A stretch of DNA of 64,000 nt from Colwellia sp. (lineage in GTDB: Bacteria; Pseudomonadota; Gammaproteobacteria; Enterobacterales; Alteromonadaceae): assembly GCA_002733765.1 (NCBI GenBank), contig NVWU01000007.1, positions 1 to 64,000 on the forward strand. The letters are read 5' to 3'. The position numbers and the translations under genes were made by a program. Within the stretch, counting starts at the first letter, position 1; every line of letters begins with the position of its first letter. The notes under the pieces are model-generated. The model saw only the letters and a program-made list of their open reading frames with translations. It made no database searches and was not told the DNA's origin. Shown here one piece after another: positions 348-27,046 of the stretch.

Positions 348-491
348 CGTAAAGCTCCTTTTATTTACTATACTTTCTTGCAATCATTTCAAATAATTGA
401 ATCCTATATTAATTATTATTGATAATTATCCCTCGATGCTTCCTTTCGATACATATGATGCGTTTTATAGAACCTGTGGGCTAAAAATAGT

Positions 492-507
492 TGCTACAAG
501 TGTTGCA
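492..507. promoter_or_regulatory. Palindromic operator, candidate activator site
   Basis: TGCTACA-AG-TGTTGCA matches the motif TGCWACA-NN-TGTWGCA at every defined position; it is the best copy in the window. Its centre lies about 84 bases upstream of the start expected from the candidate -24/-12 promoter at 558-573, a normal distance for an enhancer-binding-protein site. Confidence 0.55.
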
Positions 508-557: not shown

Positions 558-573
558 TGGATTGAATATTGCA
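558..573 (+). promoter_or_regulatory. Candidate sigma54 promoter (weak -24)
   Basis: TGGATTGAATATTGCA has GG and GC exactly 12 bases apart and a perfect TTGCA -12 box, but the -24 box is TGGATT rather than TGGCAC. With the operator at 492-507 it could drive the gene at 765 and perhaps the YceI and TonB receptor genes after it. It is weaker than the other sigma54 candidates in this window. Confidence 0.4.
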
Positions 574-4172: not shown

Positions 4173-5126
4173 TTAATCATCGATAACAATACCCCAAGGA
4201 AATTTTCCCACCTTAGTAGTCGCAATAACGGTGTTATCAACCGTATTAATGATTGAGACATCAGAGCTAACCCCATTTGAACTATAAAGACGTTTGCCAT
4301 CCTTAGACAGTGCTAGCCCCCAGACACGTTTGCCAACAGGAATGCCTTTGATTAATGTTAACGAGTCGCTATCAAGTACCATTACTTGGTTCAACCTTCC
4401 ACCAGCAACATATAAACTTTTGCCATCTTTACTTAGTAGAATATCTTTGGGTTTTGCTTTATCGTCCCCTAAAGATATTCGTTGAACAATTTTTCCCGTG
4501 GCCATCTCAACTTTGATCACTTCACCCCCAATTTCAGCAGTCGCGTAGGCAAATTTACCATCATGAGTGAATGTTGCTGCCCGTGGGCGAGCGCCAACCA
4601 GAATATTAGTGATAATTTTATGCTCTGGTACGGCAATAACATGAAGCATGTTGGTTGACTCACTGGTAATGATAACGCGCTTACCATCCGAAGAAATAGC
4701 CACCCCTTCAGGCTCTATGCCAACGGGAATTTCAGCAATAACTTCACCATTGTTAGGATTGATTACCGTGGCTTTAGCACTGTCTTCATTTGATATGTAA
4801 ATATTGCCATTAGGGTGAACAGCAAAAGCTTCTGGGTCTTCGCCGGCGTGAAATGTTCGCAATATTTTTAACGATTTCGGGTCAAAAACCGCTATTTTGT
4901 CTTCTTTGCTTATCGCGACGTATACTTCGCTCCCATCGGGAGAAATACCAATACCGCGTGGTCGCTCTCCTATCTCTATTGTTGCTTCAAGCTGATGAGT
5001 TGTCCCATTAATAACACTAACCGTGTTACTTCTTTCGTTAGTCACAAAAACACGACCGGTAGATTGGGCAAGTACCGTTTGGGTGAAAAGTGCGGCCAAA
5101 AGGATAGCGGCGCTAGTTAATTTCAT
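4173..5126 (-). CDS. PQQ-catabolism-associated YVTN beta-propeller protein
   Basis: A 317-residue periplasmic protein. A signal peptide ending at VLAQ is followed by about seven YVTN-type repeats (VFVTNERSNTVSVING, VYVAISKEDKIAVFD, IYISNEDSAKATVIN and so on) that form a beta-propeller. It closely resembles the family found beside PQQ-dependent alcohol dehydrogenases (PQQ-dependent catabolism-associated beta-propeller). Its molecular job is not established; scaffolding or cofactor handling in the periplasm has been suggested. It lies 29 bases downstream of the binding-protein gene at 5156 and is probably expressed with it from the minus-strand sigma54 promoter at 5994-6009. Confidence 0.88.
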   Translation of the reverse strand: MKLTSAAILLAALFTQTVLAQSTGRVFVTNERSNTVSVINGTTHQLEATIEIGERPRGIGISPDGSEVYVAISKEDKIAVFDPKSLKILRTFHAGEDPEAFAVHPNGNIYISNEDSAKATVINPNNGEVIAEIPVGIEPEGVAISSDGKRVIITSESTNMLHVIAVPEHKIITNILVGARPRAATFTHDGKFAYATAEIGGEVIKVEMATGKIVQRISLGDDKAKPKDILLSKDGKSLYVAGGRLNQVMVLDSDSLTLIKGIPVGKRVWGLALSKDGKRLYSSNGVSSDVSIINTVDNTVIATTKVGKFPWGIVIDD

Positions 5127-5155: not shown

Positions 5156-5944
5156 TTATTTAGGACAGTGGGTTAGACCCAAGCTATCGAGATTAGTCGT
5201 ATTGGCAACACCGCGAACAGGGGCTTCACCGGCAATTTTTCCATTTTCGATTAAGAGTAGCGGCTGCCTCAACTGACCGGTCTGACGAAAGTTAAGTGAC
5301 ATACCTTTTTGGCCATCAAAAGCGAGTGCTGTTTTTAAAAACATTAATAAAGAAGTCGTATCCTTAAATTGATTTCTAGCAATGGAGTCTGAGAGTAATT
5401 TTACTGATGCCCATCCTGCCCAAGCAGTATCAGTCATCTTATGATGGGTTGATTGTGTAAATCGGGCATTAAGCTGACCCGCTGCATATTTTTTAAAGGT
5501 ATGATGCCAAGTTTGTGCTGTAGCATCACGGTTAGGGTGTTTTTTCTGCCACTGCGCTTCGGCATCTTGTTTCATTGCTTGGCTTGGCATCATGTGTAGT
5601 ACATTAGGTAAACACTTAGCGCGTAAATCATTATCCTCAGCCGTTAAGTTGAAAATGACTTTATCTGGATACATTTTACTGAGTTGAGTAAGATGCTCAG
5701 CATCCACCGTGGTTAATATTGCACGGCTTAAATCTGGCGAGATTATTAAAGCATAATGCTGGCCCAGAAATATCCCTTGAACATTGGCTTCATCTATCCC
5801 TTGTTTTACCCCCATAAAAGCTTGGCTGTCGGTATCACCAATAAAACTTAGCTTGATCTCATTTAATGGCTTTGTTGTGCCACTGGCAGAAAAAGTCACA
5901 CTGATAAGTAGTGCTAAAATAGTAAATCGGCATTTCTCTAACAT
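5156..5944 (-). CDS. ABC-type substrate-binding protein of PQQ-ADH systems
   Basis: A 262-residue secreted protein (signal peptide ending near SASG). It matches the periplasmic binding-protein family associated with PQQ-dependent alcohol dehydrogenases: KLSFIGDTDSQAFMGVKQGI near the N terminus, then FDGQKGMSLNFR, LRQPLLLIENG and the closing LDSLG-x-THC. As I recall, relatives are often longer, so this copy looks compact in the central region. No ABC permease or ATPase gene is in the window, so it either works without a transporter or pairs with one elsewhere. Ribosome site AGGAGAG precedes the ATG, and a divergent sigma54 promoter lies at 5994-6009. Confidence 0.8.
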   Translation of the reverse strand: MLEKCRFTILALLISVTFSASGTTKPLNEIKLSFIGDTDSQAFMGVKQGIDEANVQGIFLGQHYALIISPDLSRAILTTVDAEHLTQLSKMYPDKVIFNLTAEDNDLRAKCLPNVLHMMPSQAMKQDAEAQWQKKHPNRDATAQTWHHTFKKYAAGQLNARFTQSTHHKMTDTAWAGWASVKLLSDSIARNQFKDTTSLLMFLKTALAFDGQKGMSLNFRQTGQLRQPLLLIENGKIAGEAPVRGVANTTNLDSLGLTHCPK

Positions 5945-5993: not shown

Positions 5994-6009
5994 AGCAATT
6001 ACTATGCCG
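5994..6009 (-). promoter_or_regulatory. Sigma54 -24/-12 promoter (minus strand)
   Basis: Read on the minus strand, CGGCATAGTAATTGCT fits the sigma54 consensus with GG and GC exactly 12 bases apart. The expected start is near 5983, about 40 bases before the ATG at 5944. The operator at 6186-6215 lies about 200 bases upstream and also serves the plus-strand promoter at 6345. Confidence 0.75.
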
Positions 6010-6185
6010 TAGCCTTTGCTATTATTTTTAATAAGTTCTTTAGTGTTTAACCGTATAAGTAAATGAATTAATTTACTGGGCTAAAAGCGCCATACCTACT
6101 ACGCCAAGTAAAAAATTAGTATTAAAAAATCCTCTTTATTTAGGTTGAAAAATGCTTTTTCTTATATTGGTCACCTTCATATGGT

Positions 6186-6215
6186 TGCTACAACTGCAGT
6201 GCTACAGCTGTTTCT
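6186..6215. promoter_or_regulatory. Shared activator-binding region between divergent promoters
   Basis: Two overlapping copies of the TGCTACA half-site (6186-6192 and 6200-6206), each followed by a degraded second half, form TGCTACAACTG and TGCTACAGCTGT. The region lies between two divergent sigma54 promoters (5994-6009 minus, 6345-6360 plus), roughly 215 and 170 bases from the two predicted starts, so one enhancer could drive both operons. Confidence 0.65.
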
Positions 6216-6344
6216 TTTTCACTTTTTTTTTGCGAAGAATAAAAATCAAGAAGTAAGTGTTCTGTCTGATAAAACTTTTTTATTTCTTATATATCAATTG
6301 ATTAGAATGTGTTTTTTTGAATAAAAAACGAAAGTGTTTTTTTT

Positions 6345-6360
6345 TGGCATAGCCTTTGCC
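6345..6360 (+). promoter_or_regulatory. Sigma54 -24/-12 promoter
   Basis: TGGCATAGCCTTTGCC has the GG/GC pair 12 bases apart and a TGGCA -24 box. The predicted start near 6371 leaves a leader of about 65 bases before the Rieske gene at 6437. It is expected to drive Rieske, quinoprotein dehydrogenase and aldehyde dehydrogenase together. Confidence 0.82.
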
Positions 6361-6436
6361 ATTTAACCTATATCTTGAATTAACAATCACAAAAATTAAA
6401 TATCCAAAATGTGGTTATTAACGGAGTAGGAAGTAA

Positions 6437-6994
6437 ATGCAAAGAAGAAATTTTTTTAAAGCGTGTGCCGGCTTATCAATCGCTGCCGTTGACATAACGG
6501 CTAATAGAGTAGAAGCGAAAACTAAAAAACCTGAAAAAATGCGACCTCAGGTAGGCGATCTTTTAGTTCATTATGATATTGAAGAGGGCATAAAACCAAT
6601 ATTGGTTAGCGAGTTGGAACTTTATGTTGAGCAAACAATGGCTTTTCCACAAGACAGTATCTCTAAAATAGTTCGTAACGGTTCACGCTTTAATAAAGTC
6701 ATGGTCATTCGTTTAGATCCTGAAGAAATGGATGAAAAAACTCTGGCGAACTCAGTCAACGGCGTTGTTGCCTATTCAGCTATATGTACTCATCAAGGTT
6801 GTGATGTAAATGCTTATTTAAAAGACTCAAAAGAGTTTTTTTGTTTTTGTCACCTATCTCGTTACGACCCACTCAAACAAGGACACGTTACTAATGGTCC
6901 TGCACAAAGAAAGCTAGCGATGTTACCACTGGAACAAATTGGTGATCAATTGATCGTTCGCAAAAAATTTACCCGAAAACCCGGACCAGCATAA
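6437..6994 (+). CDS. Tat-exported Rieske 2Fe-2S protein
   Basis: A 185-residue protein with a twin-arginine-like leader (QRRNFFKACAGLS). The Rieske cluster motifs are complete: C117-T-H119-Q-G-C122 and C136-F-C138-H139. Cys117, His119, Cys136 and His139 are the expected cluster ligands, and Cys122 and Cys138 the stabilising disulfide seen in higher-potential Rieske proteins. The protein is short and lacks an obvious second membrane segment, so it is a stand-alone periplasmic or leader-anchored electron carrier rather than a ring-hydroxylase component. It lies 70 bases before the quinoprotein dehydrogenase, which suggests it takes electrons from that enzyme (inference). Ribosome site GGAG supports the start. 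Confidence 0.9.
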   Translation: MQRRNFFKACAGLSIAAVDITANRVEAKTKKPEKMRPQVGDLLVHYDIEEGIKPILVSELELYVEQTMAFPQDSISKIVRNGSRFNKVMVIRLDPEEMDEKTLANSVNGVVAYSAICTHQGCDVNAYLKDSKEFFCFCHLSRYDPLKQGHVTNGPAQRKLAMLPLEQIGDQLIVRKKFTRKPGPA

Positions 6995-7064
6995 TTTTAT
7001 TATCTGATTTAAAAAGTACCCGCAAAGAAGAATAAACTTTTAAACACCCGATAGGAGTTACAAC

Positions 7065-8807
7065 ATGAAGAAAAATATAAACTTAAGCTTGCTGTTTGCA
7101 GCAGCTATGGTACCTGCAATGGCGATGGCCAGCAGCGTACTAGATAACTATAACCCAGTGACAGATGAACGGTTGAAAAACCCAGAACCTGAAAACTGGT
7201 TGCAGTGGCGTGGTAATTATGAAAGTTGGGGCTATAGCTCGCTAGACCAAATAAATACTGACAACATTGATGACTTAGTACCCGCATGGTCTTATGCAAC
7301 GGGCGAATTAGAAGGACATCAATCTCCTCCTATTGTTAATGATGGTGTGATGTTTGTTTCAACACCAAACAATAAAGTTATCGCGCTTGATGCGGCTAGC
7401 GGTAAAGAATTATGGAGCTATAAAAAAGAAATTCCAGAAGAATTATTTCAGCTTCATCCAACTAACCGTGGTGTGGGTTTATATGGTGATAAGGTTTATG
7501 TTGCCGCAACTGATGCATGTTTAGTGGCACTTGATGCTAAAACAGGTAAAGAAGTATGGGAAACATGTGTTGATGACTGGGAAGATGGTTATTACATGAC
7601 CATATCGCCTTTGATTGCCGAAGGCAAAGTAATGGTAGGTGTTTCAGGTGGTGAGTATGGCATTCGAGGTCATATTACGGCAGTTGATGCGGAAACTGGT
7701 AAAATTGCATGGAAAACTCATACTATTGCCGGTCCTGGCGATCCAGGTCATAAGACTTGGGAAGGAGATACTTGGAAAACTGGTGGTGGCTCTGTATGGA
7801 TTGCCGGTAGTTATGACGCTGATTTAGGTATTGCTTTTTATGGTACAGGTAATGGCGGTCCGTGGATGCCTGATGCTCGTCCAGGAGATAACTTATATGC
7901 AAACTCTGTTATTGCTTTAGATGTTAAAACAGGAGAAATGGTTGGTTATCACCAGTACCATCATAATGATGCTTGGGATTGGGATGAGGTATCTGCACCT
8001 TTGATCATTGATATCGAGCATGAAGGTAAAAAAATCAAAGCATTGGTTCACGCCGGTAGAAATGGTTACCTGTGGATACTTGAACGTAAACCCGATGGTA
8101 AAATTGATTTTGTTAAAGCAAAACCTTTTGTTAAAAACAATGTATTTACCAGCGTAGACAAAAAAACAGGTCGTCCAACTTATGATCCTAAACATACTCC
8201 GGGTATTGGTAAAACGGTAACTTTCTGTCCATCGCTATGGGGTGGTAAAGATTGGCCACCAGAGTCTTATAGTCCAAAAACTGGATTATTCTACATACCA
8301 GCTCACGAAAATTTATGTTCTGAAATGGGTGGTGTAAAACTTGGTAAACGCAAACCTGGCGAACTATATATTGGTGTTCCAATCTCAGAAATATTAACTA
8401 ACATTCGTTTAGGTGATGGTGCAGCTGATCATATTGGTGAGATTCAAGCTTGGGATTTAAACAAAAATGAAAAAGTTTGGACGTTTAATATCAAAGAAAT
8501 GAACTGGGGACCAATCCTAACAACAGGTGGTAACTTATTATTTTCTGGTGGTTCTAATGATCGTATGTTTCGTGCTCTAGATGCACGAACAGGTAAAAAA
8601 GTATGGGAAATGCCAATGAGTTCTGGTGTTACTGCCGTACCTTCAAGCTTTAAAGTTGATGGCGTGCAATACATTGCGGTTCAATCTGGCTGGGGTGTTG
8701 ATGCACAACGTATGCAGGGCGCTTTTGACGCGGTAATGGACCATAAAACGGTTGTACCACAAGGCGGCGTTATTAATGTATTTGCATTAAAAAATAAAAT
8801 TAAATAA
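7065..8807 (+). CDS. PQQ-dependent alcohol dehydrogenase, lanthanide-type residues
   Basis: A 580-residue periplasmic quinoprotein with signal peptide (cleavage near AMAS, residue 23) and the eight-bladed propeller of the methanol/ethanol dehydrogenase family, with repeated W-motifs such as VIALDAASGKELW and VALDAKTGKEVW. Predicted metal and PQQ residues are Glu197 (SGGE), Asn263 (TGNGG), the catalytic base Asp305 and an extra Asp307 in AWDWDEV. That second Asp marks lanthanide-dependent enzymes (XoxF, PedH); calcium enzymes have Ala or Ser there. The usual adjacent Cys-Cys pair is absent: the matching stretch reads LHPTNRGVGL. No c-type cytochrome domain is fused. It probably oxidises a small alcohol or diol to an aldehyde for AldA downstream (inference). 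Confidence 0.93.
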   Translation: MKKNINLSLLFAAAMVPAMAMASSVLDNYNPVTDERLKNPEPENWLQWRGNYESWGYSSLDQINTDNIDDLVPAWSYATGELEGHQSPPIVNDGVMFVSTPNNKVIALDAASGKELWSYKKEIPEELFQLHPTNRGVGLYGDKVYVAATDACLVALDAKTGKEVWETCVDDWEDGYYMTISPLIAEGKVMVGVSGGEYGIRGHITAVDAETGKIAWKTHTIAGPGDPGHKTWEGDTWKTGGGSVWIAGSYDADLGIAFYGTGNGGPWMPDARPGDNLYANSVIALDVKTGEMVGYHQYHHNDAWDWDEVSAPLIIDIEHEGKKIKALVHAGRNGYLWILERKPDGKIDFVKAKPFVKNNVFTSVDKKTGRPTYDPKHTPGIGKTVTFCPSLWGGKDWPPESYSPKTGLFYIPAHENLCSEMGGVKLGKRKPGELYIGVPISEILTNIRLGDGAADHIGEIQAWDLNKNEKVWTFNIKEMNWGPILTTGGNLLFSGGSNDRMFRALDARTGKKVWEMPMSSGVTAVPSSFKVDGVQYIAVQSGWGVDAQRMQGAFDAVMDHKTVVPQGGVINVFALKNKIK

Positions 8808-8837
8808 CTCTAGTAAATAGTAGCTGTAAATCAAAGT

Positions 8838-8864
8838 TCTGCTGGTTGCATCTTAATCAGCAGA
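8838..8864. other. Small hairpin between adh and aldA genes
   Basis: A 7-bp stem (TCTGCTG and CAGCAGA, 13-base loop) lies in the 95-base gap between the dehydrogenase and aldA genes. It has no U-tract. It could be a processing site or an attenuator that lowers aldA expression relative to the dehydrogenase; I see no firm proof of either. Confidence 0.35.
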
Positions 8865-8902
8865 CAATTTCATAGTTTATAAAATATCATAGGAGCCTGA
8901 CA

Positions 8903-10342
8903 ATGTTAGAGCCCATTACCCGTTACCAAAATTTTATTAATGGTCAGTTTACTGATTTATCAGGGGCTGAAATAGAAAATTACAACCCCGCAAGTCAAGT
9001 GTTGTTGTCGACCATTCCGCAATCGAGCGAGCAAGATGTTGATAATGCACTTAACTGTGCTAAGGATGCACAAATAGGCTGGAGTCTAAAACCAGCTATT
9101 GAGCGTGCTGGTTATTTACGTAAAATTGCTGAAGGTATTCGTAAAAATGCTTATGAGTTAGCGCTGTGTATTACCAAAGAGCAGGGTAAAGTACTCCCAT
9201 TAGCTGAAGTAGAAGTGAATTTTACTGCCGATTATCTCGACTATATGGCCGAATGGGCCCGACGTATTGAAGGTGAAATAATTACCAGTGATCGTGCAGG
9301 TGAAAATATTTTTTTATTTCGTAAACCCTTAGGTGTAGTGGCAGGGATTTTGCCATGGAATTTCCCTTTTTTCTTGATTGCTAGAAAGATGGCACCAGCC
9401 TTGATTATGGGCAATACCATTGTTGTTAAGCCTAGTGAAGAAACGCCTAATAATTGTTATGAATTTGCTAAAATTGTTGCTGAATCTGGGTTACCTGCAG
9501 GTGTATTTAATGTTGTCGGTGGTGCTGGAAGTGTTGGGCATCAACTGACCAGTGATAAACGAGTCAACATGATTAGCTTCACTGGTAGTGTTGATACAGG
9601 TAGTCGAATCATGGCAACCGCATCACAAAATATAACTAAGCTTAATTTAGAGCTTGGTGGTAAGGCACCAGCGATTGTACTGAATGATGCCGATATTGAT
9701 TTAGCGGTCAAAGCTATTACCGCTTCTCGTGTTATCAATACCGGACAAGTGTGTAATTGTGCTGAACGTGTTTATGTTCAGCCGGATGTTGCTGATGAGT
9801 TTATCAGTAAGTTAAAAATGTCGATGGATCAGGTCACCTTTGGCGATCCTTTATTAAAAGGGGACTTAGACATGGGGCCATTGGTTAATAAAATAGGGCT
9901 TGATAAGGTAGCACAAATGGTTGAAATAGCTCAAAACCAAGGTGCGGAGCTTATTACGGGCGGTCACATTGCCGACCTTGGTGCGGGCTATCACTACAAA
10001 CCGACTGTTTTAGCTAACTGTAGCAGTGATATGGAAATCATGAATAAAGAGATATTCGGTCCAGTTTTACCTATTCAGATTGTTAATGATTTACCCGAAG
10101 CAATCGCAATAGCGAATGCTAGTGATTATGGTTTAACATCTTCTTTATATACACGTGATCTTAGTAAAGCAATGCAAGCGGCTAATCAGTTGAGTTATGG
10201 CGAAACTTATATCAATAGAGAAAACTTTGAGGCGATGCAAGGGTTTCATGCAGGCACACGTAAATCAGGCATTGGTGGTGCTGATGGTAAACATGGTTTA
10301 TATGAATATTCACATACGCATGTTGTTTATATTCAAGCTTAA
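8903..10342 (+). CDS. aldA: AldA-type aldehyde dehydrogenase (lactaldehyde/glycolaldehyde)
   Basis: A 479-residue cytoplasmic NAD-dependent aldehyde dehydrogenase, the same length as E. coli AldA and very close to it throughout: FTADYLDYMAEWARR, GILPWNFPFFLIARKMAPAL, and ETYINRENFEAMQGFHAG at the end. The catalytic Cys lies in NTGQVCNCAERV (about residue 284) and the general-base Glu in LELGGKAP (about 250). AldA oxidises L-lactaldehyde and glycolaldehyde, which points to a 1,2-propanediol or ethylene-glycol type substrate for the quinoprotein upstream; this is inference. Ribosome site AGGAG supports the start. Confidence 0.9.
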   Translation: MLEPITRYQNFINGQFTDLSGAEIENYNPASQVLLSTIPQSSEQDVDNALNCAKDAQIGWSLKPAIERAGYLRKIAEGIRKNAYELALCITKEQGKVLPLAEVEVNFTADYLDYMAEWARRIEGEIITSDRAGENIFLFRKPLGVVAGILPWNFPFFLIARKMAPALIMGNTIVVKPSEETPNNCYEFAKIVAESGLPAGVFNVVGGAGSVGHQLTSDKRVNMISFTGSVDTGSRIMATASQNITKLNLELGGKAPAIVLNDADIDLAVKAITASRVINTGQVCNCAERVYVQPDVADEFISKLKMSMDQVTFGDPLLKGDLDMGPLVNKIGLDKVAQMVEIAQNQGAELITGGHIADLGAGYHYKPTVLANCSSDMEIMNKEIFGPVLPIQIVNDLPEAIAIANASDYGLTSSLYTRDLSKAMQAANQLSYGETYINRENFEAMQGFHAGTRKSGIGGADGKHGLYEYSHTHVVYIQA

Positions 10343-10389
10343 TACCAAATGAAATAATGAATGATCTATTCATTACTTCAATTGGTATA
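10341..10389. repeat. Palindromic intergenic repeat, copy 1
   Basis: An imperfect inverted repeat of about 21-base arms, outer ends AATACCAA and TTGGTAT, with ATTCATTA near the centre. It overlaps the aldA stop codon and nearly matches the repeat at 30985-31032. It could act as a transcript-stabilising hairpin or terminator, like REP elements. Confidence 0.75.
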
Positions 10390-10492
10390 AGTCAATAACA
10401 ATTTTATTTCGATAATTAGGCATTAAAGAGAAGGCATTCTTTTTAATGCCTATTATATCGGTTAAATGCCTTCCTTAAGTAATGGAGTTAAC

Positions 10493-10960
10493 ATGGGAAG
10501 ATTTGAAAGTATTCTACAGCGTTCTTCAGTATCATTTTCTATTATTGACACACTGGAACAGCTTCCACAGTGGGCAGCATTGTATCGGTATCGTAACAAT
10601 ATAAATGATAAAGTTTATATTCACAATTCGTCCATATTAGAGGAATTAAACTGGCATGCTGCTTCGATAGAGTTATCTTCTGACATCCATCAGTCTCAAG
10701 TACAGATATTTCACGCTTTAATGGCTAATAGTGAAAGTGGTTCACTTATATTTGACTACGATCTACAACAACAACTAAATCAAACTGATGACGGTGAAAG
10801 TACCATTGTTATTTTAAATACTTATAAATTGATGGACAGTATGGAATTTGTCGTCAACCAAATAGATGAGCTTAATAGGGATCAGCAAGAACGAAATATC
10901 AATGTGATACATCCTGCAGAACTTCCTTTTGGAACACAGCTTTGTTTATATCGTGGTTAA
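10493..10960 (+). CDS. Hypothetical cytoplasmic protein
   Basis: A protein of about 155 residues that I do not recognise. A longer reading starts at 10466, but the ATG at 10493 has a ribosome site (GGAG at 10484-10487) at the right distance, so I prefer it (MGRFES start). The protein is soluble, has no signal peptide, and includes an acidic Gln-rich stretch (DYDLQQQLNQTDDGE). It lies between aldA and the sigma54 activator gene and may belong to either transcript; a palindromic repeat separates it from aldA. Confidence 0.6.
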   Translation: MGRFESILQRSSVSFSIIDTLEQLPQWAALYRYRNNINDKVYIHNSSILEELNWHAASIELSSDIHQSQVQIFHALMANSESGSLIFDYDLQQQLNQTDDGESTIVILNTYKLMDSMEFVVNQIDELNRDQQERNINVIHPAELPFGTQLCLYRG

Positions 10961-10989
10961 ATAAATAATAAAACCTAGCTGCTGAATAA

Positions 10990-11026
10990 CATTACAAGTG
11001 TTGCATAAAATGCTACATGTGTCGCG
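10990..11026. promoter_or_regulatory. Paired activator operators upstream of regulator gene
   Basis: Two copies of the TGCWACA-NN-TGTWGCA motif: CATTACA-AG-TGTTGCA (10990-11005) and TGCTACA-TG-TGTCGCG (11011-11026). Their start points are 21 bases apart, two DNA turns, so both face the same side of the helix. They lie about 200 bases upstream of the start expected from the sigma54 promoter at 11182, which suggests autoregulation of the activator gene. A further half-site (TGTTGCA) is at 11113-11119. Confidence 0.6.
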
Positions 11027-11181
11027 AAAAGTGTAACGTGTATGCCGTATATGTTGGTTAAAGGATATTCAAATGTTGATGATATATTTTAGGCTCGTAG
11101 TTGAAGTAACAGTGTTGCACTTACCTATCCTAAGATATAAAGGATAACTTATTTCATTGAATTTGTTGTTTACTCACTGTT

Positions 11182-11197
11182 TGGCTCAGTATTTGCT
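11182..11197 (+). promoter_or_regulatory. Sigma54 -24/-12 promoter of the activator gene
   Basis: TGGCTCAGTATTTGCT has GG at 11183-11184 and GC at 11195-11196, exactly 12 bases apart. The predicted start near 11208 gives a leader of about 145 bases before the regulator at 11353, a long one. The rest of the 10961-11352 gap holds the operator pair upstream and no gene. Confidence 0.72.
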
Positions 11198-11352
11198 CTT
11201 ATACCTTAGATAAGATAGAACGACTGATTTTAAATAAAGTTAATATGGCTAGATAACCACGTTAATTATAACGAGTGAAAATTAACGGGTGTGTGACCTA
11301 TATATTTATCGTTCTTGACCACTTTCGAGAACCCTAAGTCAGGAAAATAATA

Positions 11353-13329
11353 ATGATAACTCAATACCCGACGAATAGAAAAACAGAAGATGTGGTTGCT
11401 TATATTACAGGTAACTTTCAACGAAGGGCTATCAAGCCAGAATCAATGATTGTGCAATCGTGGGAGCGGTGCTTTAGCGATTATCAATTAAACCCTGATG
11501 CTAATAGTGAAAGCATTGTGCTCACCTCACAAGAATTGAAAAATCATCAGCAATTGATGGGGGATTATTTCAAAATAGCAGCAGACGGTGTAAATAGTTT
11601 TGGTAATGCGTTAAATCAGGCAGGACTAGCTGTATTACTTGCGGATAGTCAGGGAGTAACCGTGGCTAAACGATTACCTTACGCAGAAACTGAGCTTTTT
11701 AAAGCAAATGGTTTTGTTTTAGGCTCTTGTTGGAGTGAAAAGCTAGTGGGCACTAATGCAATAGGGACGACACTAGTGGAAAAAAAACCGTTAATTGTAC
11801 ATGGTCAAGAGCATTATAACTTCAACAGTGGCAACCTTAGTTGCTCTACTGCACCTATTTTTGACTCTTTGGGTAATTTTATGGGGTGTTTAAATGCGTC
11901 ATGTCTTGCGGCTAATGGAGGAAAAGAAACACAGTTTCTGACACTGAAATTAGTTACTATGTACGCAAGAATGATTGAAAATAGTCATTTTTATCATTTT
12001 CATCGTAACAACATTGTTATCACTATCAAGCCGATGAATAACTTTGGAGAAGAAGGTCAAGGCTGTTTAATTGCACTGAGTGAAAATGGGAATATTATTG
12101 GTGCCAATCGAAACTCGTTCTCTCAGTATGCCATAACAACTATGGGTGATTTGATCGGTAAAAAAATAGAATCGCTCTTAGCATTATCAATTGAACAGTT
12201 GCAAATCCGTACTCAAGGAGGGTTAACTGATTCTTCCATCACCATAGGTAATAGTGATGAGAAATTTACGTTACAGCTTAATGTTCCTATACGATTACTC
12301 AGTAAAAATAATGCGATAGTTAAAAGTAAAAATAAAATAAATAAAATACATCATGGCCATCCGTCACTAGATCAGCTCAAAGGTAATGATCAAAATGTAA
12401 TCGCTAGTATTATCCGTATTCGAAAAATTATAAATCAAGATATTCCTATTCTTCTTCAAGGTGAAACGGGAACCGGTAAAGAAGCCTTTGCCAGAGCAAT
12501 TCATGATGAAAGTGATCGCGCTAATGGCCCCTTTATAGCACTTAATTGTGCTGCAATCCCAGAATCATTGATAGAAAGTGAGTTATTTGGTTATCAAAGC
12601 GGTACTTTCACTGGGGCCCGTAAAAATGGCATGAAAGGTAAACTAAGCCAAGCAAATGGTGGCACGATATTTCTTGATGAAATTGGTGATATGCCAATTC
12701 AACTGCAAACTAGATTACTGCGTACCCTTGCTGAAAAGGAGGTTTTGCCTTTAGGGGCCGAGGTGCCTGAAATATTAGATGTTAAAGTTATTTCGGCTAC
12801 CCATCAAAACTTAATGGAACAAATCAAAAATAAAGAATTTAGGGAAGATTTCTTTTATCGCTTAAATGGGATGTCTCTGAAGCTACCTGCGCTAAGAGAA
12901 CGTAGTGATAAGGGTAACGTTATTACATCGGTATTAAAAGTTGAAAACACCTCAATGGATGATATTCAATTTGAGCCACAGGCTTATCAATTGTTATTAG
13001 ACTATCCGTGGCCAGGTAACATCCGACAATTGAAGAATGTGCTTAAATATGCTTTAGCTTTAAAAGAGGGCTTAACCATAACAGTTAATGACTTACCCGC
13101 AGAAATAATCGATAGCAGTCCTTATATTAATACAATGCTAGTGGCTGATGACAACCAACCTAATATCTTTGTTAGTAGTAATGACCAAGGTGCTAATGTA
13201 TTGCTCAATTCATTACGTCAGCATAAATGGAATGTTACAGGTGTTGCAGAAGAATTAGGTATCTGTCGTTCAACCATTTATCGAAAAATGAAAAAATTTA
13301 ATATCATTCAACCTAACGATGTTTTTTAA
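11353..13329 (+). CDS. Sigma54-dependent activator, AcoR/Fis type
   Basis: A 658-residue enhancer-binding protein. The N-terminal GAF-like sensor region (about 70-210) includes GSCWSEKLVGTNAIGT, typical of AcoR relatives; a short PAS-like stretch follows (about 235-310). The AAA+ domain has Walker A GETGTGKEA (370-378) and Walker B GTIFLDE (about 437-443). The sigma54-contact loop reads GTFTGA (417-422) instead of GAFTGA. A Fis-type helix-turn-helix ends the protein. AcoR-type regulators sense small metabolites and activate alcohol or acetoin catabolism. A matching sigma54 promoter and operators lie upstream. It is the likely activator of the alcohol-oxidation genes; the ligand is unknown. 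Confidence 0.92.
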   Translation: MITQYPTNRKTEDVVAYITGNFQRRAIKPESMIVQSWERCFSDYQLNPDANSESIVLTSQELKNHQQLMGDYFKIAADGVNSFGNALNQAGLAVLLADSQGVTVAKRLPYAETELFKANGFVLGSCWSEKLVGTNAIGTTLVEKKPLIVHGQEHYNFNSGNLSCSTAPIFDSLGNFMGCLNASCLAANGGKETQFLTLKLVTMYARMIENSHFYHFHRNNIVITIKPMNNFGEEGQGCLIALSENGNIIGANRNSFSQYAITTMGDLIGKKIESLLALSIEQLQIRTQGGLTDSSITIGNSDEKFTLQLNVPIRLLSKNNAIVKSKNKINKIHHGHPSLDQLKGNDQNVIASIIRIRKIINQDIPILLQGETGTGKEAFARAIHDESDRANGPFIALNCAAIPESLIESELFGYQSGTFTGARKNGMKGKLSQANGGTIFLDEIGDMPIQLQTRLLRTLAEKEVLPLGAEVPEILDVKVISATHQNLMEQIKNKEFREDFFYRLNGMSLKLPALRERSDKGNVITSVLKVENTSMDDIQFEPQAYQLLLDYPWPGNIRQLKNVLKYALALKEGLTITVNDLPAEIIDSSPYINTMLVADDNQPNIFVSSNDQGANVLLNSLRQHKWNVTGVAEELGICRSTIYRKMKKFNIIQPNDVF

Positions 13330-13486
13330 ATAAACAGCCACTAATCAATGTATTACTGTAAACGTTCATTTCAATTTATTAGTATAATAAATGCTTATTC
13401 ATTAGCTAAACTCGTTGACCGTTGTTATTGGTAAAAATAATAGCAATATCTAAAAAAAACCGTAAATACAACTTTGGAGTATCATT

Positions 13487-13930
13487 ATGAAATTATTATC
13501 AGTAAGTCTTTTATGCCTTTTTAGTACGAGTATATTGGCGAGTAATCTTCCTCAATCAATGGAGGAATTAGAGCAACGTTATCTGACAGCCTATCAAAAT
13601 AAAAATATTGATAGTATTTACAATTTAATTGATTGGACAGGGGTTAGCGGTTACAAGAAAAAAATGGTTAAAGTTTACACGAGAAATAGCCTTGGAAAAA
13701 AAATTATAAAGACAGAATTTGAAGCGGTTGATGAAACGTTTTTTAATGATTTTTCTGTTGGTGAGAAACACTTTAAATCTAACCTTGCTGTTGAAAATTT
13801 ATTTAGGATCGAGTTTGATAATCCACAGAGAGAAGAGTCATTAGTCTATTTGGTCGGTAAAAGTTCAGAAGGTTATCAGTTTTCTCTTTCAATAAAAAAC
13901 AAAATAAAATCAAATGATAGCGACTTTTAA
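13487..13930 (+). CDS. Small secreted hypothetical protein
   Basis: A 147-residue protein with a clear signal peptide (MKLLSVSLLCLFSTSILAS, cut about residue 19). The mature start, MEELEQRYLTAYQNKNIDSIYNLID, resembles the first helix of NTF2/SnoaL-like folds, but I cannot assign a family firmly. A ribosome site (GGAG) precedes the ATG. It sits between the sigma54 activator and the DUF4242 gene and is probably periplasmic. No catalytic motif is visible. Confidence 0.6.
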   Translation: MKLLSVSLLCLFSTSILASNLPQSMEELEQRYLTAYQNKNIDSIYNLIDWTGVSGYKKKMVKVYTRNSLGKKIIKTEFEAVDETFFNDFSVGEKHFKSNLAVENLFRIEFDNPQREESLVYLVGKSSEGYQFSLSIKNKIKSNDSDF

Positions 13931-13985
13931 TGCTTTGTTAGCGCATTAGGCAATATTCTAACCCCCAACAAATGGAGAAAATACT

Positions 13986-14270
13986 ATGCCAAGATATGTA
14001 ATAGAACGAGACATTCCTGAAATAGGATCTGCTGAGCGTGAAGATCTGCGAGAAGCTGCTGATAAGTCTAATGGCGTACTAAATGCAATGCAGGCAGAAC
14101 AGAAGAAAATTCAATGGGAACATTCCTACGTGGCTGACAATAAGACATTCTGTATCTACTTAGCTGATAATGTCACACTTATCGAAGAACATGCGGAGCG
14201 AAGCGGCTTTCCTGCCACCAAAGTAACTGAAGTACGGAAGATTATTGATCCCGTAACAGCGGAAGACTAA
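13986..14270 (+). CDS. DUF4242 family protein
   Basis: A 94-residue protein matching the small DUF4242 domain: the opening MPRYVIERDIPEIGSA, a central HSYVADNKTFCIYLADN and EEHAERSGFPATKV are typical. These are ferredoxin-like-fold proteins, some described as small metal-binding or sensor-type proteins; the role is not established. Ribosome site GGAGA lies before the ATG, 55 bases after the preceding gene. It precedes the sigma54-controlled porin gene. Confidence 0.8.
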   Translation: MPRYVIERDIPEIGSAEREDLREAADKSNGVLNAMQAEQKKIQWEHSYVADNKTFCIYLADNVTLIEEHAERSGFPATKVTEVRKIIDPVTAED

Positions 14271-14468
14271 AATTCATTATGAGTACTTGAAGTGGCTCTA
14301 GCTAACGTTAGGCCGCTAAGGGCAGGTTTTATAAACTCTAATTTTTATAACTACTCTAAATGTTTTTTACCACTCTTCACTTAAATTTATCTATTAAGTT
14401 TTTAATATCAAGCCTTACCCCCTGTAGACAGCATCATCTAATTGACCCTTCTTTTCTTTTGATAAAAC

Positions 14469-14514
14469 TTAAACAGCTGTAGCAATTCTCACAAAAATTG
14501 CTACAGCTGTCCTA
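14469..14514. promoter_or_regulatory. Perfect inverted operator pair upstream of porin gene
   Basis: Two perfect 15-base inverted arms (ACAGCTGTAGCAATT at 14473-14487 and its complement at 14496-14510), 8 bases apart. Each arm contains the GCTACAGCTGT core also found at 6202-6212. The centre lies about 170 bases upstream of the start predicted from the sigma54 promoter at 14634, almost the same spacing as at 6186/6345. The rest of the 14271-14697 gap contains no gene that I can see. Confidence 0.7.
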
Positions 14515-14633
14515 ATATAACTGTAATTTTATAGTTAACATACTTAATAAGAAATAACGTGTTAAATAAAAAATACTATTTAAATCAATTTGTTGAGTGT
14601 TAATTCTGTTTTTTTTTATTATGTTTTTTTATT

Positions 14634-14649
14634 TGGCACAAGCATTGCG
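14634..14649 (+). promoter_or_regulatory. Sigma54 -24/-12 promoter of the porin operon
   Basis: TGGCACAAGCATTGCG is a near-perfect consensus (TGGCAC, five bases, TTGC) with GG and GC 12 bases apart. The start is expected near 14660, about 38 bases before the ATG at 14698. It is the strongest sigma54 match in the window. Confidence 0.85.
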
Positions 14650-14697
14650 ATATATAACCCCAGTATCTAAAAAAACAATCACTAAATGGGGAAAAAA

Positions 14698-15927
14698 ATG
14701 AAAAAAACAATTATTGCCGCTAATGTGGCTGCTCTATTAGCACTGGGTCTAACAGCTACTCAGGTTCAAGCGGTAGAGTTTATGGATGGTAAACTTAAGA
14801 TTAATGGTGCAGCTATGCAATCGTGGCAATCAGCTATGGAAGTTGATGGCTTCGCAAGAGCTCCGCAAGAAGCTGATAGTGGCTTTCATCGTCTACGTTA
14901 TGCGCTGCATTTTAATGCTCAAGTGACTGACACTATTTCCGTGTTCGCCGAGTTGGCGGAAGAACCAAATGACTTTGGTAACTTTAATGTTGCTCAAGAT
15001 TTGGCTTGGATTCAATTTGCTAAAGATGGTATTGGCCTTAGAGTGGGTAATGTAATTTCTACTACTCAAAACTTCATTGAGTATTCAGATGGTGCTGTTG
15101 TTCAAAGCAATCCACTAATTGGTAATAGCCCTGTAGATATGATTACTGCAGAAGAGGGTCTTTGGCTTTACGGTGCACATGACAATATCACTTGGGATGC
15201 TGTGGTAAGTAAGCCTAGTTTTGCTACAGATTTCTCTAAAGATTCTGGTTACAACTACGGTTTACGGGGTACCTATGGATTTGATAATGGTTTGTCTGTT
15301 GGTGCAGGTTTATTTATTACTACGGCTGAATTAAATTGTGCTACAGATGGCTCGTGTACAGATAATGTAGACGCTGCTATTGGTTCACTTATTGCTGTTG
15401 GTGATGGTGATAATTATCAGTTTGGTAGTGATGGTACAGGTTTAACCGGTACACCAGGTCGAGGTAGTCACTTTGCAATTGTTCCTGGCATTAGTGCAAC
15501 AATCTGGCAAATAGACGCTCAATATAAAACAGAGAACTTAAAATTAAATGCCTATTATGGTTTAGCTCAAGATGATTATAGCTGGGCTGATGATGGTATT
15601 GCCGGATATCGACCAGTCTCTGGAAGTTTCACTAATACCGAGTCTAAAGTCTCTTTTATAAGCGTTAAGGCTAAATACGATATTAACAAAAATGTCTACG
15701 TTGCAGCTCGTTATTCAATGTCTACTAATGAATCAGCGGGAATTTCTAGTGATGATAGTTTAGATCGTATTCAAGTAGGCGGCGGTTATTGGATTGCAGA
15801 TAAAGTATTGCTAAAAGTCGAATATGTTAAGCAAACAGAAGAAGCACATTCTGGTGGACAAGCGACTAATGGTGAAGGTGAAGCTGAATGGGATGGCATA
15901 TTAGCTGAGCTGTCTGTATCGTTTTAA
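14698..15927 (+). CDS. Outer-membrane porin
   Basis: About 409 residues, starting at the ATG at 14698, which is preceded by GGGGA; an in-frame ATG 12 bases earlier lacks a ribosome site. Signal peptide MKKTIIAANVAALLALGLTA... is cut near VQA. The mature protein is a beta-barrel with alternating polar and aromatic residues (LRYALHFNAQVTDTISVFAEL) and a terminal Phe (LSVSF), as in phosphate-selective-type or general porins of marine gammaproteobacteria. Because it lies directly behind the strongest sigma54 promoter, it probably admits the alcohol or diol substrate through the outer membrane (inference). Confidence 0.85.
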   Translation: MKKTIIAANVAALLALGLTATQVQAVEFMDGKLKINGAAMQSWQSAMEVDGFARAPQEADSGFHRLRYALHFNAQVTDTISVFAELAEEPNDFGNFNVAQDLAWIQFAKDGIGLRVGNVISTTQNFIEYSDGAVVQSNPLIGNSPVDMITAEEGLWLYGAHDNITWDAVVSKPSFATDFSKDSGYNYGLRGTYGFDNGLSVGAGLFITTAELNCATDGSCTDNVDAAIGSLIAVGDGDNYQFGSDGTGLTGTPGRGSHFAIVPGISATIWQIDAQYKTENLKLNAYYGLAQDDYSWADDGIAGYRPVSGSFTNTESKVSFISVKAKYDINKNVYVAARYSMSTNESAGISSDDSLDRIQVGGGYWIADKVLLKVEYVKQTEEAHSGGQATNGEGEAEWDGILAELSVSF

Positions 15928-18974: not shown

Positions 18975-20861
18975 ATGAAACCTGAGCTAAATAAAATCCT
19001 CGACCTTAAATTTTGGCAAAGCCTACAGGATAATTTTTCGGAATTATCTGGCATGGCGACCTTAACTGTAGATAACGAAAAACCGGTGACCTCTGGTAGT
19101 CATTTTACTGATTTTTGTACAATGTATACTCGTCAAAGTGAGTTGGGTCTTGAACGTTGTAATGATTGCGATCTCAAAGCGGGTCGAAAATCCTGGAAAT
19201 CTGGCAAGCCCTTAGTCTATAAATGTCATGCAGGCTTAGTCGATATGGCTGCTCCTATAATGGTTAACGGTCGACAAGTAGGCTCAGTATTAGGTGGTCA
19301 GGTATTGACCTCACCACCTGATGAATGGGTATTTAGACGTTACGCCAAGGAATTGGGAATTAACCCCGAGCAATACTTTGATGCAGTGAAACGAGTACCC
19401 ATTGTTTCAGAGGAAAAAGTAAAAGCAGCTTCTCGCCTTTTATTCCAGATTGCCACTAAAATGGGAGATGTTCATCTACAACAGGAGAACATTCAAAAAA
19501 TCAGCTATTTACTCGATCGGGAGAATTATTATTTTCGCCAAGCGCATGATAGTGCTCTGATATTGTCTTTTGATAATTCAGATGAAGGCAGTGATTTTAA
19601 ACAAAATGGTTTGTTGGCGGTAAACAAACAAGGCAAGGTAGTTGCGGCTAATAGTACCGCAGCAAAGGCCTATCAATTACGATCAGATACAAGTTTCACT
19701 GAGGTACCAGTTAATCAATTATTTGATGCATCAGTGAGTGACTTGAACTCAGCAGGAGGTTCTGTTTTACTGCGGTGTAAGCAAAGTGATGAGGTAGTTA
19801 AAGTTGATTTATCTGCCCCTTTCAACTTTGTTGCTAAACCCCTATCTAAGCAAGTAAATAATATTCATGCGAACAGATCAAAACACCCATCAATGGAAGA
19901 ACTAAGCGGTAAAGATCCCGTTATTCAGCATAATATTGGTTGTGTGCGTAAGGTACTGAATAAAGGTATTTCAATTCTGATATTAGGTGAAACAGGCACA
20001 GGAAAAGAAGCATTTGCTAGAGCAATTCATGAAGAAAGTAATCGTGCTAATGGACCTTTTATTGCACTTAACTGCGCTGCTATTCCTGAATCATTAATAG
20101 AAAGTGAGCTGTTTGGTTACAGTGGTGGAACTTTTACAGGCGCGAATAAAAAGGGCATGAAAGGAAAGCTATTATTGGCTAATGGCGGTACTATTTTTCT
20201 CGACGAAATTGGTGATATGCCTCTTTTACTTCAAACTCGGCTGCTGAGGGTGCTAGCAGAGCAAGAAATATTACCCTTAGGGGCAGAAAAACCAATCGCT
20301 ATAGATGTAAATGTAGTTTCTGCAACACATCAAAATTTATCTAGTTTGATTGCTAACAAGTTTTTCAGGGAGGATTTATATTACCGTCTTAACGGAGCAA
20401 CGTTAAAACTTCCACCTTTAAGGAAACGGCTCGATAAAGAACATTTAATAAACGCTATTTTTGCTCTAGAGTCGAAGAAAAAGTTTAAACTGGATCCGGG
20501 TGCGTTGTTGGTGTTATTACAATACCAGTGGCCAGGTAATATAAGGCAATTAGTGAATGTAGCTCGTTATGCTTTAGCGATTAGTGAGCATAATCAGGTT
20601 AAATTGGACTGCTTACCTGAGGAAATCTGTGAGCCAGAAATGACAAGTACAGTTGACTTAAGTGAAGTCGTTGGTGATAAAAATGAAAAGGTTACAATGC
20701 TCTCGACTAAATTGAGTGATAAAGGTGAGGCTTTGATAGAAACTTTGCGTAGGCACAAGTGGAATATTTCAGCGGCTTCAAATGAGCTTAATGTTAGTCG
20801 CTCTACACTATATCGTAAAATGGATCGATATCAAATTAAACAACCTAATACATTATATTAA
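18975..20861 (+). CDS. Sigma54-dependent activator with PocR sensor domain
   Basis: A 628-residue enhancer-binding protein. Residues about 5-170 form a PocR-type ligand domain, the family named after the propanediol regulator and proposed to bind small hydrocarbon derivatives. It contains a conserved cysteine group: Cys48, Cys62, Cys65 and Cys84. A degenerate PAS-like segment (about 210-270) precedes the AAA+ domain with Walker A GETGTGKEA (338-346) and loop GTFTGA (385-390); a Fis-type helix-turn-helix ends the protein. The AAA+ and C-terminal parts closely match the activator at 11353, so the two are paralogues with different sensors. It probably co-regulates the alcohol genes. No sigma54 promoter is seen before it. 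Confidence 0.92.
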   Translation: MKPELNKILDLKFWQSLQDNFSELSGMATLTVDNEKPVTSGSHFTDFCTMYTRQSELGLERCNDCDLKAGRKSWKSGKPLVYKCHAGLVDMAAPIMVNGRQVGSVLGGQVLTSPPDEWVFRRYAKELGINPEQYFDAVKRVPIVSEEKVKAASRLLFQIATKMGDVHLQQENIQKISYLLDRENYYFRQAHDSALILSFDNSDEGSDFKQNGLLAVNKQGKVVAANSTAAKAYQLRSDTSFTEVPVNQLFDASVSDLNSAGGSVLLRCKQSDEVVKVDLSAPFNFVAKPLSKQVNNIHANRSKHPSMEELSGKDPVIQHNIGCVRKVLNKGISILILGETGTGKEAFARAIHEESNRANGPFIALNCAAIPESLIESELFGYSGGTFTGANKKGMKGKLLLANGGTIFLDEIGDMPLLLQTRLLRVLAEQEILPLGAEKPIAIDVNVVSATHQNLSSLIANKFFREDLYYRLNGATLKLPPLRKRLDKEHLINAIFALESKKKFKLDPGALLVLLQYQWPGNIRQLVNVARYALAISEHNQVKLDCLPEEICEPEMTSTVDLSEVVGDKNEKVTMLSTKLSDKGEALIETLRRHKWNISAASNELNVSRSTLYRKMDRYQIKQPNTLY

Positions 20862-27044: not shown

Positions 27045-27046
27045 AA

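Follow-up and report, generated by a model that had tools for sequence, protein, structure and literature searches.

The 64,000 nucleotides of a Colwellia sp. contig analysed here (the window) contain an island of genes for which a preliminary description had proposed one alcohol oxidation regulon with autoregulation, and the question raised by the locus is whether its promoters are controlled through a single palindromic operator, and by which activator. Catabolic regulons governed by a bEBP and sigma54 are an already known type. In the accessible parts of the literature, the PQQ-alcohol systems described have two-component/LuxR regulators or an ECF factor, and a search of that literature, thin on subscription papers, returned no sigma54/AcoR-type operator recognised for a PQQ alcohol oxidation operon. 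Sequence comparison supports the proposal: with a probability of about 0.86, the island would form one sigma54-dependent regulon in which an AcoR-type EBP acts on paired operators with IHF-assisted looping, and would offer, for the oxidation of alcohol by PQQ enzymes in marine Gammaproteobacteria, a concrete operator together with a regulon of seven promoters.

The gene content suits alcohol oxidation, comprising an aldehyde dehydrogenase and a PQQ alcohol dehydrogenase (7065-8807) that scores 559.8 bits against the methanol/ethanol family TIGR03075 (cut-off 480.05) and is rare in the order, being found in four of 247 genomes, its own included (E 1e-100). In the alignment, its WDWDEV corresponds to WDFDGV in 6zcv and to WDYDGI in 6dam, and not to WDYTAT in 1yiq; D-x-D at the catalytic aspartate is what we take to be the mark of lanthanide-dependent PQQ dehydrogenases, and by this mark the enzyme is probably of the lanthanide type. 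The porin-like protein had no match in Pfam or NCBIfam. Homoprotocatechuate-like genes adjoin the island, beyond an IS remnant.

Table 1. Predicted features of the window, with predicted targets of promoters (L035, locus of a Colwellia relative; L013-L016, Neptuniibacter loci)
Feature	Position	Strand	Remarks
Gene	5156..5944		Minus promoter 5994-6009; TIGR03863 match below cut-off
Gene	4173..5126		Minus promoter 5994-6009; TIGR03866 beta-propeller
Rieske iron-sulphur protein	6437..6994	plus	PF00355; start Tat-type in appearance (by eye)
PQQ-dependent alcohol dehydrogenase	7065..8807	plus	TIGR03075; D-x-D as in lanthanide enzymes
Aldehyde dehydrogenase	8903..10342	plus	PF00171
AcoR-type sigma54 activator	11353..13329	plus	PF00158, PF25601, PF02954; proposed operator-binding protein
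Porin-like protein (label of the preliminary description)	14686..15927	plus	Orthologues in L013-L016 and L035
PocR-sensor sigma54 activator	18975..20861	plus	PF10114, PF00158, PF02954
Promoter CGGCATAGTAATTGCT	5994..6009	minus	5156-5944 and 4173-5126; module score 29.5
Promoter TGGCATAGCCTTTGCC	6345..6360	plus	Rieske/quinoprotein/aldehyde dehydrogenase operon; top module, 35.7
Promoter TGGCTCAGTATTTGCT	11182..11197	plus	AcoR-type gene; module 34.9
Promoter TGGCACAAGCATTGCG	14634..14649	plus	Porin, DUF1097, TonB receptor; module 31.1
Weak promoter TGGATTGAATATTGCA	558..573	plus	765-1055, YceI (1125-1709), TonB receptor (1738-4065)
Promoter TGGAATATAAATTGCT	23844..23859	minus	SRPBCC (23045-23587) and NosR-like (20895-22970); module 25.9, fifth in window
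Weak promoter TGGGTTGAATATTGCA	25752..25767	minus	Chemoreceptor gene 24008-25591
Operator TGCTACAAGTGTTGCA	492..507		Perfect copy; 20.9 bits by model trained outside the window
Possible second operator CGATACATATGATGCG	447..462		45 bp upstream of 492
Two overlapping operator copies TGCTACAACTGCAGTGCTACAGCTGT	6186..6215		14 bp apart; common to divergent promoters
Operator pair CATTACAAGTGTTGCA, TGCTACATGTGTCGCG	10990..11026		21 bp apart; upstream of activator gene
Operator pair	14469..14514		30 bp apart; strong half-sites facing: TGTAGCA ... TGCTACA
Operator	23911..23926		For SRPBCC/NosR-like promoter; centre about -86
Operator pair (25820, 25865)	25820..25880		45 bp apart; chemoreceptor promoter; 14.3 and 13.6 bits
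IHF-like site TATCAATTGATTA	6292..6304	plus	Between operator and promoter; exact WATCARNNNNTTR
IHF-like site AATCAATTTGTTG	14583..14595	plus	Exact; identical in L035

The four strong -24/-12 promoters are present at the places proposed, with 12 bases from GG to GC in each on direct reading, and the one at 558 is the weaker promoter it had been said to be; those at 23844-23859 and 25752-25767, both on the minus strand, had been overlooked. Compared with TGGCAYNNNNNTTGCW (GG and GC 12 bases apart), five of the seven carry one mismatch and two (558 and 25767) carry two, and all seven are by this consensus putatively sigma54-dependent. The SRPBCC/NosR-like, chemoreceptor and 492/558 promoters probably also belong to the regulon. 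Another locus, L090, carries TGGAATGATATTTGCC and a two-mismatch operator at the places aligned to the 23844-23859 promoter and to 23911-23926, respectively. The 25752-25767 promoter lies within a 98-bp block with 79% identity to the 558 promoter region, and 447-462 belongs to a stretch with 85% identity to the control region of the chemoreceptor, in which the operators at 25865 and 25820 are likewise 45 bp apart; as judged from these alignments, the 492/558 control region is a duplicate of that of the chemoreceptor.

Operator copies were also present in all the regions proposed (492-507, 6186-6215, 10990-11026 and 14469-14514), and 492-507 is indeed the best of them, being the sole perfect TGCWACANNTGTWGCA in the window; the copies at 6186/6200, 10990/11011 and 14469/14499 have two to three mismatches each. 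Of the motif first given, TGCWACA-NN-TGTWGCA, the palindrome and the half-sites stand and the W should be N, giving TGCNACA-NN-TGTNGCA. The -24/-12 pattern (up to two mismatches) occurs 27 times in the window against 16.3 +/- 3.8 in shuffles, and the operator pattern (up to three mismatches) 23 times against 12.9 +/- 3.4, numbers reached in 0 of 100 shuffles in either case. Since this excess of the single patterns is modest, any single site alone is weak evidence; the operator-promoter combination is strong evidence. An operator match at 13233 inside the AcoR-type gene was taken as chance because it falls in HTH codons, despite its score of 15.9. In the whole genome, the N-form operator (up to one mismatch) has 25 matches against nine for the reversed pattern; 15 of the 20 with surroundings inspected lie within reading frames (one of these 15 being a perfect copy inside a pilin-like gene), and six other genomes in which the regulon is absent hold three perfect matches and three of the reversed pattern. 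The operator alone was therefore rejected as a genome-wide predictor, given the intragenic matches and the chance copies in genomes devoid of the regulon.

The modest excess and the lone operators found by chance elsewhere would suit a reading of the motifs as accidents of AT-rich intergenic DNA, which is, however, contradicted by conservation across genera and by the model tests, and is extremely improbable. A matrix built from the window sites and applied to relatives scored 17 SD above block-shuffled upstream DNA, the sum over 14 upstream regions (11 of Neptuniibacter and three of the genome G121, sites in most of which were already known when chosen) being 234.5 against 64.2 +/- 10.0, which none of 1000 column permutations reached. 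Omitted from the 14 were the L016 activator (absent at the locus), the DUF1097, second-ALDH and divergent promoters, and the G121 AcoR, which shares its region with the G121 QDH. With up to two mismatches, the pattern as first proposed occurs ten times in the upstream DNA tested (4,857 bp) and eight times in the other 78,350 bp of L013-L016 (Fisher p 1.3e-8). A model from the Neptuniibacter and G121 sites, not fully independent as its 34 operator and 24 promoter words were chosen for resemblance to the window motif, ranked the four promoters first described as the top four of eight window modules (29.5-35.7); the best of 14 modules in 400 kb taken from the window's genome (20 hand-picked stretches) scored 24.9, below all four. 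The window-trained matrix applied outward is the cleaner test. The window modules at 9355 (minus), 15381 (plus) and 7529 (minus) were rejected, being intragenic and, at 18.8-23.6, within the control range.

Conservation of the motif upstream of orthologues had been set beforehand as a test, and wherever a locus has the gene in question, both motif and -24/-12 are retained at the promoters of the quinoprotein operon, the porin and the activator, in the Colwellia relative (L035) as well as in Neptuniibacter (L013-L016). In L035, the 5994-6009, 11182-11197 and 14634-14649 promoters are unchanged and that at 6345-6360 has a single base change; the 6186-6215 operators fall in 35 identical bases (6185-6219) of the alignment, the 14469-14514 pair is in a near-identical block, and the activator upstream region has three operator copies, 20-21 bp apart. 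The spacing of the porin operator pair is 30-32 bp across the window, L035 and L013-L016. The L035 copy of the 492 operator has three mismatches, and the distance from this operator to the 558 GG is 59 bp in the window and 60 bp in L035. The proposed autoregulation gains support from six whole genomes (G121 and G247-G251), in which perfect TGCNACANNTGTNGCA occurs six times and the reversed pattern not once: four copies sit upstream of an AcoR-type gene, one at pqqA and one within a reading frame. A sigma54 gene was found in all five genomes searched.

Five loci (L017-L020 and L036) keep -24/-12 at the Rieske operon, where no operator was found within two mismatches, and the activators linked to them carry different HTH sequences; across loci, activator HTH and operator appear to change together. 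At L022 and L024, two dehydrogenase loci that are more distant, there is no -24/-12 and the palindromes are of other kinds. Seventeen of the 27 dehydrogenase loci were scanned whole for the operator. In the G121 AcoR/QDH divergent region, one two-mismatch operator and no -24/-12 within two mismatches were found, and 13 loci of AcoR-like proteins in 12 other gammaproteobacterial genomes gave one two-mismatch operator, within a reading frame. PQQ biosynthesis was rejected as a regulon member in the window's genome, in which, as in G251 and G247, pqqA has no operator within two mismatches; in the Neptuniibacter genomes G248 and G249, the operator sits between -24/-12 and pqqA, which is odd for an enhancer.

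The palindromes might instead serve a different regulator (a LuxR-type response regulator or a repressor), with the sigma54 activator acting on unrecognised sites. Palindromes fit many regulators, PQQ-alcohol systems with the LuxR-type regulators AgmR and PedR2/ExaE are known (accessible part of PMC12997753), and a perfect site at C21:68541 lies upstream of a histidine kinase/LuxR-like pair at which no -24/-12 was found. However, paired copies at -84 to -225 suit an enhancer and, from genus to genus, the operator is found together with the AcoR type and its HTH, which makes such a regulator very unlikely.

The operator centres at 6200 and 14491 are, in agreement with the near-equal distance proposed, separated by 171 and 169 bp from the starts predicted at 6371 and 14660; this geometry of 170 bp is limited to these two promoters, the operators of the activator and 5994 promoters being at about -190 to -225. 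An exact IHF consensus occurs between operator and promoter in eight of 21 regions, where 0.57 would be expected (eight was attained in none of 500 simulations), the L035 Rieske/quinoprotein promoter region likewise having one; at the activator promoter of the window and L035, no exact consensus was found, the best match having two mismatches. In the favoured model, the AcoR-type enhancer-binding protein (11353-13329) would bind paired copies of TGCNACA-NN-TGTNGCA, the TGCTACAGCTGTAGCA duplex being its predicted target; its N-terminal domain may sense alcohol or the oxidation product of alcohol, and it would activate sigma54 polymerase at the -24/-12 promoters, through IHF-assisted DNA looping from operators 150-225 bp upstream and, at the three weaker promoters, from about -85. 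Its core targets would be the Rieske/PQQ dehydrogenase/aldehyde dehydrogenase, divergent PQQ-associated and porin/DUF1097/TonB operons and its own gene, with the SRPBCC/NosR-like, chemoreceptor and YceI/TonB operons as probable further targets. The contrast between the -85 and -170 operator classes is one on which looping and the need for IHF could naturally be tested.

Likenesses to known systems are described here from the accessible parts of the sources. The BmoR/butane monooxygenase promoter similarly combines an alcohol-responsive sigma54 activator, a distant upstream inverted repeat and an IHF-like site between, a likeness of layout; its target is a monooxygenase and the bmoR promoter is described as constitutive, whereas an operator and -24/-12 precede the activator gene here (PMC8899819). 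Clostridial EBP regulons (AcoR, AdhR, BldR) have likewise been reconstructed from an EBP-specific UAS and a sigma54 promoter, and fifteen clostridial EBP groups have TGT/ACA repeats with a 10-12-bp spacer, near the TGC-N10-GCA found here; however, the half-site is another one, the motif of the clostridial AcoR is given as a distinct one and no PQQ enzyme is mentioned in the part available (PMC6615313). The AcoR of B. subtilis acts on a palindromic stretch some 30 bp long, likewise composed of repeated half-sites and again alike in layout, but its targets metabolise acetoin (PMC10018347). In Pseudomonas ped/exa, a PQQ alcohol dehydrogenase, an aldehyde dehydrogenase and PQQ-associated genes are similarly under common control, but the local regulators are of the two-component/LuxR type and sigma54 enters via CbrB only (PMC12997753).

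Domain matches agree with the presence of two AcoR/PocR-type activator genes inside the island. The 11353-13329 protein has the makings of an AcoR-type bEBP, namely Walker A GETGTGK, a GTFTGA loop, and sensor, Sigma54_activat and Fis-type HTH domains; exact GAFTGA is given for 355 of 490 clostridial EBPs in the accessible part of PMC6615313. A strict acetoin AcoR was rejected, the conserved neighbours being PQQ dehydrogenase, Rieske, ALDH and porin and not acetoin dehydrogenase, and the protein is filed, from its sequence, as AcoR-like only. The AcoR type is the most likely operator binder and autoregulator, because operators accompany it across genera and are missing at the five loci with another activator HTH.

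Over its C-terminal two thirds, the PocR type resembles the AcoR type (identity of 47% across 455 columns of linker, AAA+ and HTH); it differs in the sensor, and it may read the same sites. The HTH ends are similar (HKWN[IV]...[CS]RST[IL]YRKM..[FY].I.QPN). It is possible, though not favoured, that both types read the operators with different sensors, integrating two signals, or that the PocR type is the main regulator in Colwellia: among its 120 listed relatives, 48 are full-length orthologues (74-100%), the others being AcoR types with 43-51% identity over 70-84% of the query, and six equal-sized longest contigs common to the PocR-type and AcoR-type orthologue rows suggest linkage in other Colwellia. 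Yet in the four Neptuniibacter genomes and G121, which keep the operators, the sole matches for the PocR query (E 1e-100) are C-terminal ones of AcoR type, the PocR-type HTH differs at several residues, and no operator or -24/-12 was found upstream of its own gene at the thresholds used. In the tree, in which long branches were flagged, the PocR type does not group within the AcoR types, be they from marine bacteria or from Pseudomonas (support 92/86), and is therefore not a recent copy. More tentatively still, two sensor heads on one DNA-binding/AAA+ body in Colwellia could let two signals converge on one operator set for a probably lanthanide-type PQQ dehydrogenase, porin, TonB receptors, chemoreceptor and NosR-like electron carrier, in a regulon grown partly by duplication of operator-promoter modules. 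The pair, with unlike sensors on closely similar DNA-binding ends, would give direct access to the question of how input domains are swapped among bEBPs.

The window forms the opening 64 kb of a 270-kb contig from a Colwellia-like genome, and its putative alcohol-oxidation island is summarised in the table. The nearest named relative is a Colwellia MAG locus, L035, the dehydrogenase of which is 94% identical. Of 27 related loci, 24 combine the dehydrogenase gene with a nearby Rieske gene. A Pfam scan detected no cytochrome c domain in 20 island proteins. Alignment of the window dehydrogenase to 6zcv (which we take to be P. putida PedH) and 6dam revealed the D-x-D motif that marks lanthanide-dependent PQQ dehydrogenases; therefore, a TonB receptor serving metal or PQQ uptake would make sense.

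Genes of the putative alcohol-oxidation island (about 0.5-26 kb of the window) and their predicted -24/-12 promoters
Feature	Gene (nt)	Promoter (nt)	Family model
Minus-strand promoter		5994-6009 (minus)	
Promoter of 765-1055/YceI/TonB		558	
Rieske protein		6345-6360	
PQQ alcohol dehydrogenase	7065-8807		TIGR03075, above cut-off
Aldehyde dehydrogenase			
PQQ-catabolism beta-propeller			TIGR03866, above cut-off
PQQ-associated ABC binding protein relative			TIGR03863, below cut-off
AcoR-type sigma54 activator	11353-13329	11182-11197	
SCO4226-like small protein			
Porin-like protein		14634-14649	no family match
DUF1097 protein			
Two TonB receptors			
PocR-sensor sigma54 activator	18975-20861		
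SRPBCC protein and NosR-like protein		23844-23859 (minus)	NosR model, below cut-off
Chemoreceptor		25752-25767 (minus)	

The preliminary description had proposed a sigma54 regulon with four strong promoters and a palindromic operator, TGCWACA-NN-TGTWGCA. The four promoters and all the operators were found at their positions, the 12-base spacing of GG and GC is correct and the 170-bp geometry holds for two promoters; each W of the operator is better replaced by N, giving TGCNACA-NN-TGTNGCA. In the four strong promoters the operator centre falls between -154 and -225, and in the three weaker ones at about -84 to -87 (that of the chemoreceptor calculated from its coordinates). Within the window the excess of both patterns over shuffled sequence is modest (operator, 23 matches against 12.9; -24/-12, 27 against 16.3).

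Footprinting was performed on 27 loci with dehydrogenase relatives, taken from named records. The Rieske/dehydrogenase/porin set is closely kept in five, L035 and the Neptuniibacter loci L013-L016, and four of these five also carry the activator; for L016 an AcoR-type gene lies elsewhere, on G250:C109. Upstream of the orthologous genes, a comparison suggested at the outset, motif and -24/-12 are kept in all five loci wherever the gene in question is present there. Operators and promoters stand out against diverged intergenic DNA in L035: 6185-6219 is identical over 35 bases, the activator and porin promoters are unchanged, the Rieske promoter differs at one position, and the porin operators sit in a near-identical block longer than 40 bases. 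Neptuniibacter carries -24/-12 elements within one mismatch at the Rieske (4/4), porin (4/4) and activator (3/3 at the locus) genes, each with at least one operator within three mismatches, mostly 120-330 bp upstream. Operator and promoter also precede DUF1097 (4/4; one operator with three mismatches) and a second aldehyde dehydrogenase (4/4; one operator with three mismatches, one promoter with two). Transcribed away from the Rieske gene is a second operon, served by the same operators, for which three of four loci show a promoter within two mismatches; in L014-L016 its last gene is NosR-like.

A matrix built from the seven window sites was applied to 14 orthologous upstream regions and summed to 234.5 bits, against 64.2 +/- 10.0 in 300 block shuffles (maximum 89). 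None of 1000 column permutations reached this value, their maximum of 234.1 presumably reflecting near-equivalent column orders. The original pattern with up to two mismatches occurs 10 times in 4,857 bp of tested regions and 8 times in 78,350 bp elsewhere (about 20-fold, p 1.3e-8). Conversely, when sites from Neptuniibacter and G121 served as the training set, the resulting model gave eight operator-promoter modules in the window, the top four being the strong four (35.7, 34.9, 31.1, 29.5) and the fifth the SRPBCC/NosR-like promoter (25.9), compared with 14 modules, the best at 24.9, in 400 kb of the window's genome; the 558 and chemoreceptor promoters fell under its promoter threshold. Six perfect operators (none for the reversed pattern) occur in the six genomes G121 and G247-G251, two of which have none; four of the copies precede the activator gene, another is at pqqA and the last falls within a reading frame. 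Six other genomes hold three perfect operators and three for the reversed pattern; thus, the operator alone is not diagnostic.

The operator is probably read by the AcoR-type activator, with joint use by the PocR type possible, because an AcoR-type gene of this clade is present in every regulon genome (the window's own, G121 and G247-G251), helix-turn-helix (HTH) and site covary, and a full-length PocR-type match was missing from all four Neptuniibacter genomes at E 1e-100. The best Neptuniibacter operators are those at the AcoR-type gene's promoter. The AcoR-type protein has a conserved HTH end, in most cases ICRST[VI]YRKMKK[FY]NI. Activator protein and operator site change together: L017-L020 and L036 keep a -24/-12 within two mismatches at the Rieske operon and have no operator within two mismatches, their linked activators being 34-37% identical with different HTH sequences. 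Neither element was seen in L022 and L024. By eye, L017, L018, L020 and L036 have in common a different word upstream of the Rieske sigma54 promoter, TGTTTCAG or a close variant followed by CTGT, to which their own activator may bind. Outside the sensor, the PocR and AcoR types can be aligned throughout (47% identity); the best 120 of 7,474 proteins comprise 48 PocR-type orthologues (74-100%) and otherwise AcoR types, and in a tree with flagged long branches the PocR-type proteins group together, separate from the AcoR types of marine bacteria and Pseudomonas.

The SRPBCC/NosR-like promoter and operator are kept at aligned places in L090, from the same genome as L035. The chemoreceptor control region is a duplicate of the 492/558 region: 98 bp that span the promoter and extend past it align at 79% identity (E 3e-19), a further operator lies in a block of 39 columns at 85%, and two operators are 45 bp apart in both. 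The same operator-promoter module thus stands at either end of the island in opposite orientation, at 433-654 in front of 765-1055 and at 25690-25860 (minus) in front of the chemoreceptor gene. The exact IHF consensus WATCARNNNNTTR, as quoted in the available part of PMC8899819, is present in the operator-promoter interval of 8 of 21 regions (0.57 expected), including the window Rieske and porin promoters; at the window's activator promoter it is absent from this interval.

Regulons with upstream sites and -24/-12 promoters are a known kind in the accessible portions of PMC6615313, PMC8899819 and PMC10018347. PQQ dehydrogenases are placed under LuxR/two-component control in the available text of PMC12997753 and under an ECF factor in that of PMC12826043, which also lists EraR and RpoN as interaction partners. 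The sigma54-dependent regulator in the consulted part of PMC4630880 lacks a -24/-12 at its own gene, whereas the window's activator gene has one. No earlier report of the TGCNACA-NN-TGTNGCA operator was recognised in a search of literature listings and of passages from the papers cited here. In the proposed mechanism, an alcohol or its aldehyde would relieve the activator, which would assemble on paired operators; IHF would bend the DNA, GTFTGA loops would contact sigma54 at -24/-12 and positive autoregulation would amplify the response. The porin and TonB receptors could import substrate or cofactor, towards which the chemoreceptor might direct cells.

Perfect or one-mismatch operators lie between a -24/-12 site and pqqA in two Neptuniibacter genomes (L056 649-664, L066 1138-1153), where the regulon may therefore include PQQ synthesis. 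Elsewhere in the window's genome, a gene pair encoding a histidine kinase-like protein and then a LuxR-like response regulator has a perfect operator 163 bp upstream (L009 1501-1516; C21:68541) with no recognisable -24/-12. On both sides of the island, at 295-345 and 26500-26550, one insertion-sequence end (ATTGAGTTTGAACAGTC...) recurs in the same orientation, with a decayed transposase around 25980-26530, and these copies may have carried or framed the island. The adjoining genes at 26598-32696, putatively MarR (the one scanned for domains), FAA-hydrolase, aldehyde dehydrogenase, dioxygenase-like, hydratase-like and aldolase-like, look like a homoprotocatechuate (hpa) pathway.
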